IMG/VR virus record: IMGVR_UViG_3300035703_000371
Span: 1 to 27,062 of that record
Length of the DNA stretch: 27,062 nt
From: a virus
Strand: one strand, 5' to 3'
Positions 25,129-27,062 of this stretch are shown here, piece after piece. The position numbers were made by a program, and so were the translations under genes. The stretch's first letter is position 1. Each line of letters opens with the position of its first letter. A model generated the notes under the pieces. It made no database searches and was not told the DNA's origin. It saw only the letters and a list, made by a program, of their open reading frames with translations.

Positions 25129-25420
25129 GCATGTAACGCAGCTCGACGACGCGGGCGGATTCGCGCAGCGTCGTGACCCTGGTGCGCTTCATCACCTCGA
25201 TCGCGATCGCCACGAAGGTCTCAAGCTCGGCCCGCTCCTCGTCTCCCCAACCAATGAGCTCGGCGACGCACTGCTGCAGCCGCTGATCGCGCAGGGTGGA
25301 CACCTTGTCGACCAGGTACTCGAGATCCTCACGCGGCAGCGCTGCCCGCTGTCGCAGCAGATATTGCATCCGCAGAGCTTGCTCGGCCACAAAGTCGAAG
25401 TCGGGTTTCGGGCGTTTCAA
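25040..25420 (-). CDS. Hypothetical helical protein downstream of integrase
   Basis: A 126-residue, mainly helical and charged protein (KRPKPDFDFVAEQALRMQYLLRQR, LEYLVDKVSTLRDQRLQQCVAEL, ERAELETFVAIAIEVMKRTRV, RESARVVELRYML). The TTG start at 25420 has GGAG seven bases upstream (25428-25431), inside the integrase codons for YLEKI. It overlaps the integrase tail by 92 bases and ends inside the zinc finger gene on the other strand. The composition looks like a true protein rather than a shadow, but no family is recognised. Confidence 0.55.
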   Translation of the reverse strand: MKRPKPDFDFVAEQALRMQYLLRQRAALPREDLEYLVDKVSTLRDQRLQQCVAELIGWGDEERAELETFVAIAIEVMKRTRVTTLRESARVVELRYMLKQTAEQAAPAAGHNPGTETGPAPAARAG

Positions 25421-26606
25421 GGATCTTCTCCAGGTAGTCCGACCAAAGTTTCAGCGCCGCTCGTTTCTGCGGCAAGTAGTCGGCACGGTCGTAATGCCGA
25501 CTGCCAGTGTCATTCATTGCGTGCTGCTGGATCAAGTCGCGGGTAAACCGATCGACACCGGCCGCAGCCGCGAGGGACTTCCAGGTGCGCCGAAGGTCGC
25601 GCAGCTGCCAGCGGGGCGCCTTCGTGCGCTTGAGGTATCGCTCGACCGCTTTGGTAAGGGCGTGGTCGTCGATCGGCATGAGCAGGCCCGATCGGCGAAC
25701 CTGTAGCAGCTCGCGGATGATGGCCATCGCCAAGGGCGGCAGCGGTACCGGGTGGGCAAACTTGCCGACCTTCGTTTTCGGCGCCGGGATCGTCCAGACC
25801 GCGCCATCGAGGTCGAGCTCGGCGACATCCATCCGCAGGGTCTCGCGGGCACGCTGGCCGAGGACGATCATCAGGCGGATGGCTGCACGGGTCTCGGGCG
25901 CCCAGCCTGGCCCAGCGGTGGCCGACCAAAGCGCTCGGAGCTCACCCTCGGTCAGCACCCGGTCGCGCGGCTTGCTGGCTTCGGCATCGCGCTGGACGGC
26001 CTCGACGGGATTGCTGGATACTCCCCAGTCCCGGCGGTGTTCTTCCCGGTAATCGTGGGTGGCCTTAATCGCCCAGTTGAAAGCCGCGGACAGGTAAGCC
26101 CGGATCCGGTCGGCGGCGACCTTGGCGCCGCGCTGGTAGACCTTGGCCAGGTACGCGCTCACGTCGGCCGGGGTGATAGATCCGGCCAGCCGGTTGGCGC
26201 CCAGATCCTTCGCTGCCAGTTTCAAGCACCGGCGGACCTCAGTGGCGCTCGACTTCCCGTCGGCGACCATCCGATCACAGTACGCCTCGAACAGGACCGC
26301 GATCGTCGTCTGCTGGACCGGAACAGTCACCTTCGGGCTCACGCCGGTCGCCAGGGCGCCGCGCACCAGCTGGGCATACTGGTCGCGGGCGTCGGCCAGG
26401 CTCATGTCCGGGTATCTGCCCAGCTGCCGCCGCTGCCGCTTGCCATCGAGCCACCACTGGCCGGCCCAGTTCGCGGTGACGCCATTGGCGCCGCGCCGGA
26501 TGACGAGCACCAGGCTGCCGGTCCCTCGACCGCCTGCCTTGTCGTTCAAGACGGTCTCAGACGTGCAGGTTTTGAGGGCGGCTTGGATCTTGCGGTCGGT
26601 GAGCAT
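25329..26606 (-). CDS. int: Tyrosine-family integrase
   Basis: A 425-residue site-specific recombinase. An arm-binding-type N-terminus (GSLVLVIRRGANGVTANWAGQWWLDGKRQRRQLGRYP) is followed by a core-binding helical domain (about 100-205) and the catalytic domain. Arg252 lies in GQRARETLRM, Lys candidates in PKTKVGKF, Arg339 in RDLRRTW, His362 in QQHAMND, and the nucleophile Tyr372 in RHYDRADY. The first residue of the usual HxxR box is Arg336 instead of His, a variant I recall from related phage integrases. Conserved sequence ends near residue 395 (YLEKI); the last 30 residues are low-complexity and read through the next gene. The gene starts three bases from putative arm sites, so binding there may repress its own expression. 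Confidence 0.93.
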   Translation of the reverse strand: MLTDRKIQAALKTCTSETVLNDKAGGRGTGSLVLVIRRGANGVTANWAGQWWLDGKRQRRQLGRYPDMSLADARDQYAQLVRGALATGVSPKVTVPVQQTTIAVLFEAYCDRMVADGKSSATEVRRCLKLAAKDLGANRLAGSITPADVSAYLAKVYQRGAKVAADRIRAYLSAAFNWAIKATHDYREEHRRDWGVSSNPVEAVQRDAEASKPRDRVLTEGELRALWSATAGPGWAPETRAAIRLMIVLGQRARETLRMDVAELDLDGAVWTIPAPKTKVGKFAHPVPLPPLAMAIIRELLQVRRSGLLMPIDDHALTKAVERYLKRTKAPRWQLRDLRRTWKSLAAAAGVDRFTRDLIQQHAMNDTGSRHYDRADYLPQKRAALKLWSDYLEKILETPETRLRLCGRASSADAISAATAGSAAA

Positions 26607-26608
26607 TA

Positions 26609-26630
26609 GGGTATGGTTCCGGGTATGGTT
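26609..26630 (+). repeat. Left pair of GGGTATGGTT direct repeats
   Basis: Two exact 10-base copies (26609-26618, 26621-26630) with a 12-base period lie directly upstream of the integrase start codon (26604-26606). They are likely integrase arm-binding sites and possible operators for int. Confidence 0.75.
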
Positions 26631-26742
26631 TCGGTGGATCTCGAGCCCTATGAATACCGCAGGCTCCCGAGCCGGTCCACTGAAAAACCCCGGTTTTATT
26701 GATCTTTGATGATGTCGGGTGATTGCAGGTGATGCCTGTCGG

Positions 26743-26792
26743 TCTGACTTTTAATCAGAGGGTCTCGGGTTCGAACCCCGACGGGCTCACCA
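26743..26792 (+). other. 3' fragment of tRNA-Lys(TTT), attachment core
   Basis: The stretch folds as the last two thirds of a tRNA: anticodon arm TCTGA-CTTTTAA-TCAGA (26743-26759, anticodon TTT), a five-base variable loop, T arm TCGGG-TTCGAAC-CCCGA (26765-26781), and the acceptor 3' strand CGGGCTC with ACCA (26782-26792). No D arm and no matching 5' acceptor strand (GAGCCCG) lie upstream, so this is not a complete tRNA gene. Phages that integrate in tRNA genes carry such a fragment to rebuild the 3' end after insertion. The predicted host target is a tRNA-Lys gene with encoded CCA. Confidence 0.85.
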
Positions 26793-26852
26793 CCTAACCC
26801 CCGAAAACTTCTCGATAATCCGACCGGCACCCGCAAGCCGGTAAAGGCTCGC

Positions 26853-26874
26853 GGGTACGGTTTAGGGTATGGTT
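26853..26874 (+). repeat. Right pair of GGGTAYGGTT direct repeats
   Basis: GGGTACGGTT (26853-26862) and GGGTATGGTT (26865-26874) repeat the left pair with the same orientation and 12-base period. The last base touches the stop codon (26874-26876) of the minus-strand excisionase-like gene. Confidence 0.75.
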
Positions 26875-27062
26875 CAGCGCTTGCACCCGAGAGTTCTCGC
26901 GCTTTCCCATTCAATCACGGACTTGACCGGGTAAAGCACCCGACCGCCCACCTTCGTGTATGCAGGACCGTCTCCGGTGCTGCGCCAGTTGGCCAGCGTG
27001 CGGATCGTGATCGTTCCCTTGTAACGGCTCACCAGTTCGACCGGCGTCAGATATTCATGCAC
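26874..27062 (-). CDS. Excisionase-like helix-turn-helix protein (at window edge)
   Basis: A 62-residue or longer protein read from the window end. It shows an AlpA/HTH_17-type winged helix: YLTPVELVSRYKGTITIRTLANWRSTGDGP, then YTKVGGRVLYPVKSVIEWE. These proteins act as excisionases or transcription factors. The first codon in view is a GTG at the last three bases of the window; the true start could be there or outside. It points in the same direction as int and is separated from it by the attachment region, so a role in directing excision is plausible. Confidence 0.75.
   Translation of the reverse strand: MHEYLTPVELVSRYKGTITIRTLANWRSTGDGPAYTKVGGRVLYPVKSVIEWESARTLGCKR

Follow-up and report, generated by a model that had tools for sequence, protein, structure and literature searches.

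The right end of the DNA analyzed here very probably comprises a complete, lambda-type phage attachment site (attP) of a temperate, siphovirus-like phage that targets a tRNA-Lys(TTT) gene, and we propose a mechanism for its integration. The window, i.e., the whole stretch that was analyzed, spans the full 27,062 bp of a linear IMG/VR virus record, and the integration region forms its right end. The window also encodes a lambda-like head and tail module (GpA terminase, portal, lambda-type tape measure, and gpJ-like tip protein), and a DNA methylase gene (N6_N4_Mtase; 578-1897) lies between the genes for the small and large terminase subunits. The following features make up the integration region, with RDF denoting a directionality factor:

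25329-26606, minus strand: int, a 425-aa tyrosine integrase with an N-terminal arm-binding domain (Pfam, catalytic residues, PDB match)
26609-26618, plus strand: arm-type site 1, int side, GGGTATGGTT (2 bp from the int start codon; paired architecture conserved)
26621-26630, plus strand: arm-type site 2, int side, GGGTATGGTT (paired architecture conserved)
26700-26739, plus strand: four 10-bp-phased units starting TGAT (26700, 26710, 26720, 26730), predicted RDF/excisionase binding array (repeats in relatives)
26743-26792, plus strand: attP core, tRNA-Lys(TTT) positions 27-76 including CCA (identical to host tRNA-Lys genes)
26748-26754, plus strand: anticodon loop CTTTTAA, predicted 7-bp strand-exchange region (from arm-to-anticodon spacing and by extension from anticodon-loop integrases)
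26829-26856, minus strand: GC-rich hairpin 3' of the RDF gene, between core and right arms (fold -29.9 kcal/mol, z -6.0; T-tract lost)
26853-26862, plus strand: arm-type site 3, far side, GGGTACGGTT (paired architecture conserved)
26865-26874, plus strand: arm-type site 4, far side, GGGTATGGTT (abuts the stop codon of the RDF gene; paired architecture conserved)
26874-27062, minus strand: winged-HTH (HTH_17) gene, predicted RDF/excisionase (RdfS profile and fold matches; 5' end cut by the contig end)

A preliminary description of this DNA had noted two same-orientation pairs of GGGTAYGGTT with a 12-bp period, bracketing a tRNA-Lys fragment beside a tyrosine integrase, and both the coordinates and shuffled controls agree with it. 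The arm units of each pair (26609-26630 and 26853-26874) all lie on the plus strand with a 12-bp period, and the pair pattern, GGGTAYGGTTNNGGGTAYGGTT, occurs exactly twice in the 27,062 bp; no copy of it arose in 100 shuffles that preserved dinucleotides. A gap of 2 bp separates the int start codon from its arm pair, and there is no Shine-Dalgarno sequence between them (26600-26640), as is also the case in relatives L043 and L045. The integrase itself has the arm-binding, core-binding, and catalytic domains and the catalytic residues that characterize a lambda-type system. Its Pfam domains (Arm-DNA-bind_3, Phage_int_M, and Phage_integrase) all scored above cut-off, residues R252, R336, R339, H362, and Y372 were invariant in nine relatives, and the arm domain of a CP4-like integrase (3jtz) was matched in the PDB (E 0.005). 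Box II reads RxxR instead of HxxR, as in all aligned relatives.

The core coincides to the base with the coordinates that had been proposed for it, and its predicted target, a host tRNA-Lys gene with a matching 3' end, was found. The 50 bp at 26743-26792 are exactly positions 27-76 of intact alphaproteobacterial tRNA-Lys genes (e.g., L009, L011, L016, L024, and L025), i.e., the core is identical to the host attB, as in lambda-type sites. Scanning the whole genome collection for the tRNA-Lys 3' part, with two positions left loose, yielded 19 loci, several with the exact sequence and nearly all in Alphaproteobacteria (Rhodospirillales, Sphingomonadales, Hyphomonadaceae, Rhizobiales, and others). 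ARAGORN called a complete tRNA-Lys at all 18 of the tRNA-core loci submitted to it. Laboratory alphaproteobacteria that have this tRNA-Lys include Stella and Aestuariivirga, with a T-loop one base different. Since the shared block runs from the first base of the anticodon stem through CCA, it supplies what an integrase acting in the anticodon loop needs in order to restore the gene. L013 is a contig filed under Candidatus Kuenenia, where an alphaproteobacterial tRNA-Lys has flanks like those of Sphingomonadales and Rhizobium sp. Q54 loci; its placement is probably a binning error. We rejected the idea that the phage-borne fragment is itself an expressed tRNA, because ARAGORN found no complete tRNA in the 27,062 bp of this incomplete contig and the Rfam tRNA model (26732-26789) scored 29.2 bits against a cut-off of 29, barely at threshold. 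In the IMG/VR relative L007, a perfect 9-bp inverted repeat (GCCCGTCGG/CCGACGGGC) closes the tRNA remnant into a tRNA-like fold, and the window retains this repeat at 26732-26789 with one G-T pair.

For comparison, 80 integrase relatives were fetched. Results showed that in 44 sequences with integrase identity of at least 42%, counting near-copies, a tRNA anticodon element is flanked by two pairs of 12-bp period, with 223-316 bp from pair to pair, while an identical search of 300 dinucleotide shuffles returned no four-site architecture. Several further relatives have arm pairs by looser criteria; arm pairs were not seen in relatives below ~40% integrase identity. The arm motif proved to be conserved, being kept in integrases of only 45-54% identity: GGGTAYGGTT is exact in PPpW-3, MQ-4, PT1, L051, and L052, and others have a variant matched on left and right. 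The variants found between phages were GGGTAYGGTT, GGGTGCACYW, GGGTGCCCYW, GGGTAAGGTT, GGGTGCTGTT, GGTGGCACYA, TTGGTCGCGG, and GGTTGAACCT. Although the motif varies between phages, the left and right pairs match within each phage, as would be expected of a single binding protein, and the N-terminal arm domain of Int is its likely reader. The entire site is kept in L007, whose integrase is 99% identical and whose DNA is 95.7% identical over 4 kb; the close relative L008 also keeps the site, its contig ending at the right arms. Among these relatives, none joined at a different core was seen. Since this layout is common to dozens of related phages, the attP is real, complete, and well conserved, and is of a kind already known.

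It had also been proposed that the sequence represents the unintegrated form, and this is a sound inference. Both pairs are contiguous in the window, which is itself linear, and the circular relatives G765 and G775 have arms on both sides of the core; the unintegrated form is therefore the simplest reading. A contiguous attP alone does not establish a free circular phage, and a contig could also be linear and contain an attP-like junction if it stemmed from a concatemer or from a lysogen with tandem or multiple prophages, since a tandem prophage has one internally. We regard such an origin as highly improbable, given the two circular contigs and the fact that a complete attP in this family is mostly found on virus contigs of comparable length. 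The linear contig L044/G766 (L145, G766:1-400) begins exactly at the last CCA base of the core and has only the int-side arms, which suggests that the assembly broke off at a genuine integration junction. The 19 tRNA-core genomes, 385 Alphaproteobacteria, 398 Pseudomonadota, a further order sample, E. coli genomes (searched with the Alux-21 region), and plasmids yielded no integrated copy; the best matches in these searches were ~36% identical integrases lacking such an attP. An integrase search of genome contigs likewise gave no match. In the circular relative G775, a region (L149, G775:36900-38756) has two attP whose identical tRNA-Lys 3' cores, at 205 and 1469, are separated by 1.26 kb; the interval holds a short run of unknown genes, as would result from insertion of a small element into the attP of the phage itself.

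We also considered that the phage is of temperate ancestry and that the present copy of its attP has decayed, such that it no longer integrates efficiently. In most relatives, 129-132 bp separate the int-side arm pair from the anticodon element, regardless of the tRNA involved (Lys, Arg, Gly, or others); in the window this distance is 116 bp, ~14 bp below the family norm. IHF-consensus sites occur at fixed offsets in many relatives, and the consensus was looked for in the window and found to be absent, although an IHF-type bending site is accessory to a lambda-type attP and not strictly defining. Between the core and right arms, a canonical intrinsic terminator of the RDF operon is present in most near relatives (L043, L045, L046, L047, L050, L051, and L052), and the window keeps the hairpin alone there, without a T-tract; scans of 26500-27062 for sigma-70-type promoters and terminators were negative. 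The lack of an IHF consensus, the shorter distance, and the lost T-tract call for caution about full function, and the absence of an integrated copy from the genomes searched is also in keeping with decay. However, none of the four arm units has been lost from the window, its 50-bp core is complete, and its int is intact with every catalytic residue in place; the same attP is present in a second lineage (95.7% identical), and L045 (106 bp) and L070 (117 bp) also depart from the usual spacing. Decay is thus quite unlikely, and the matched four-site architecture, tRNA core, and near-constant arm-anticodon spacing argue for a complete lambda-type attP.

The HTH gene that the preliminary description had flagged as excisionase-like is real, and the whole gene is visible in L007. 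Its best solved relative by profile was RdfS (8dgl), the directionality factor of ICEMlSymR7A (E 9.9e-6), and RdfS was also the top Foldseek match to its predicted fold (TM 0.74, E 1.8e-3), followed by the GIsul2 excisionase and the filament-forming BldC. Homologues are encoded next to or near int in most relatives. The product is thus a small winged-HTH protein related to known RDFs, with its gene near int and attP and with repeated sites within attP, and we predict from its sequence and modelled fold that it is an RDF/excisionase with a role in excision. A transcription regulator is unlikely but would invalidate the int/xis split discussed below: HTH_17 spans many regulators, its score on this gene was just under the Pfam cut-off (25 vs. 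27 bits), and BldC and terminase small subunits were also matched. RdfS is nevertheless the best match by both profile and fold, the homologues accompany the integrase family even where the gene is on the other side of int, and a phased repeat array suits a filament-forming winged-HTH RDF (PMC11963761). Such an array is present between int and core. In the attP sites of 35 relatives, RTGAW repeats were exactly 10 bp apart in 24 of 39 pair distances and lay mostly at -48, -38, -28, and -18 from the anticodon element, and GTGATG occurred in 17 of the 35 sites vs. 3.0 expected (the top count of any hexamer in shuffles was 11); the 35 sequences are kin, so these counts are not independent events. 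BldC binds as one molecule per DNA turn, and RdfS has been modelled likewise (PMC11963761), consistent with the 10-bp TGAT array at 26700-26739, which is probably the excisionase site.

The position of the core between int and this gene had been described as an uncommon layout that would leave the two genes at opposite ends of the prophage. L007, which extends beyond the end of the window, has an operon directed towards attP that comprises the genes for an exonuclease VIII-like nuclease, an ATPase with weak similarity to Sak4, and the RDF; int follows past attP on the same strand. In a tree of 58 integrases, the window belongs to a supported 11-member clade (97/99). The order RDF-attP-int is seen in nine of these members; the exceptions are L044, whose contig starts at the core, and L042, which has a duplicated attP. 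With this order, integration would indeed place RDF and int at opposite prophage ends. The layout differs from that of the Mano/PPpW-3/Persinger/Mica branch, in which the HTH gene is downstream of int on the other strand, but it is the rule in the window's clade, and int and RDF genes that are not coupled have been described in other systems (PMC2951348, PMC3203893). The split is therefore a trait of the clade, with precedents in KplE1, cluster K mycobacteriophages, and ICEMlSymR7A, and is uncommon only in part. The less usual feature is that the neighbor of int would be the displaced tRNA fragment instead of the intact gene.

In the mechanism that we propose, Int would bind the four GGGTAYGGTT arms via its N-terminal domain and the inverted repeat of the tRNA anticodon stem via its catalytic domain, bridging arms and core and exchanging strands in the anticodon loop of the host tRNA-Lys(TTT). 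The host tRNA would be made whole by the 3' half that the phage carries, leaving the intact gene adjoining the RDF gene and the displaced 3' fragment adjoining int. The predicted RDF-side junction would read intact tRNA-Lys, then CCTAACCCCCGAAAAC and the RDF-side arms, while the int-side junction would comprise the int-side arms and core, then host DNA. Excision would be driven by the winged-HTH RDF bound to the 10-bp-phased array between int and core. Since the arms abut the int start codon, autorepression is likely, as has been shown in KplE1 and ICEMlSymR7A, with Int bound just before its own start codon limiting int expression.

A second mode of integration appears to exist among the relatives. 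Ten of these have only an anticodon-loop core (Persinger, PPpW-3, MQ-4, PT1, Alux-21, Mano, L061, L073, L075, and L080), the short-core attP loci being upstream of int (L002, L003, L004, L005, L033, L034, L061, L073, L075, and L080), and all ten carry, immediately within or beyond the right arms, a whole tRNA with the matching anticodon. No separate tRNA was found near the right arms of relatives with a full 3' half (in L043 and L065, the tRNA that was called overlaps the core). In the six short-core relatives checked, 9-11 bp are common to core and phage tRNA, and the Arg cores have 9 bp in common with E. coli argU. Lysogeny that depends on a phage tRNA is proven in mycobacteriophages with a ~10-bp core at tRNA-Lys(TTT) (PMC10865867) and has been reported for Mesorhizobium-phage-like prophages of Sinorhizobium (PMC12429752). 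A short core with a whole matching tRNA is the signature of this tRNA-dependent lysogeny, which is probable in these proteobacterial phages. In the description of Mano, the attachment site was equated with the whole tRNA (PMC7849712); the geometry of the arms instead favors a short anticodon-loop element. The window lacks this signature, as it keeps the whole tRNA 3' half and has no tRNA gene on its incomplete contig. It seems reasonably probable that one proteobacterial integrase family whose four-arm attP geometry is fixed has, on more than one occasion, switched between restoring the tRNA and destroying it while providing a whole replacement.

The family thus lets tRNA-restoring and probable tRNA-replacing integration be compared under one integrase architecture, and its more than 40 natural variants with matching left and right arms could reveal how integrase arm domains choose DNA. 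A fully delimited attP with an identified target and predicted arm, core, and RDF sites might also serve in integration vectors for poorly studied alphaproteobacteria.

Among known systems, the attP-intS/RdfS module of ICEMlSymR7A is similar in having a heterobivalent tyrosine integrase, several short arm sites, an attP of ~280 bp upstream of int, int autorepression, and an RdfS-like winged-HTH RDF that binds within attP; it differs in having five arm sites with the motif TGKTGGTATC and rdfS in a conjugation operon, and in being an ICE, not a phage (PMC11963761). In KplE1, HK620, and Sf6, the int promoter region likewise overlaps the attachment region, int is autoregulated, and int and RDF are not co-transcribed; however, the target is argW, and int is beside the intact tRNA after integration, whereas that of the window would be beside the displaced 3' fragment (PMC2951348). 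Cluster K and L mycobacteriophages share an attP 5' of int, arm-site pairs around the core, anticodon-loop cores (one at tRNA-Lys(TTT)), and a MerR-like Xis encoded outside attP, and CrimD has a stem-loop terminator between core and arms, but their hosts are of another phylum, their motifs are different, the right pair of CrimD is inverted, and some use tRNA-dependent lysogeny (PMC3203893, PMC10865867). Mano, PPpW-3, Persinger, MQ-4, and Mica have homologous integrases (44-51% identity) and a four-site attP with a 12-bp period, the motif being GGGTAYGGTT in PPpW-3 and MQ-4; they differ in the HTH gene, downstream of int on the other strand, and, in all but Mica, in having a short core with a whole phage tRNA.
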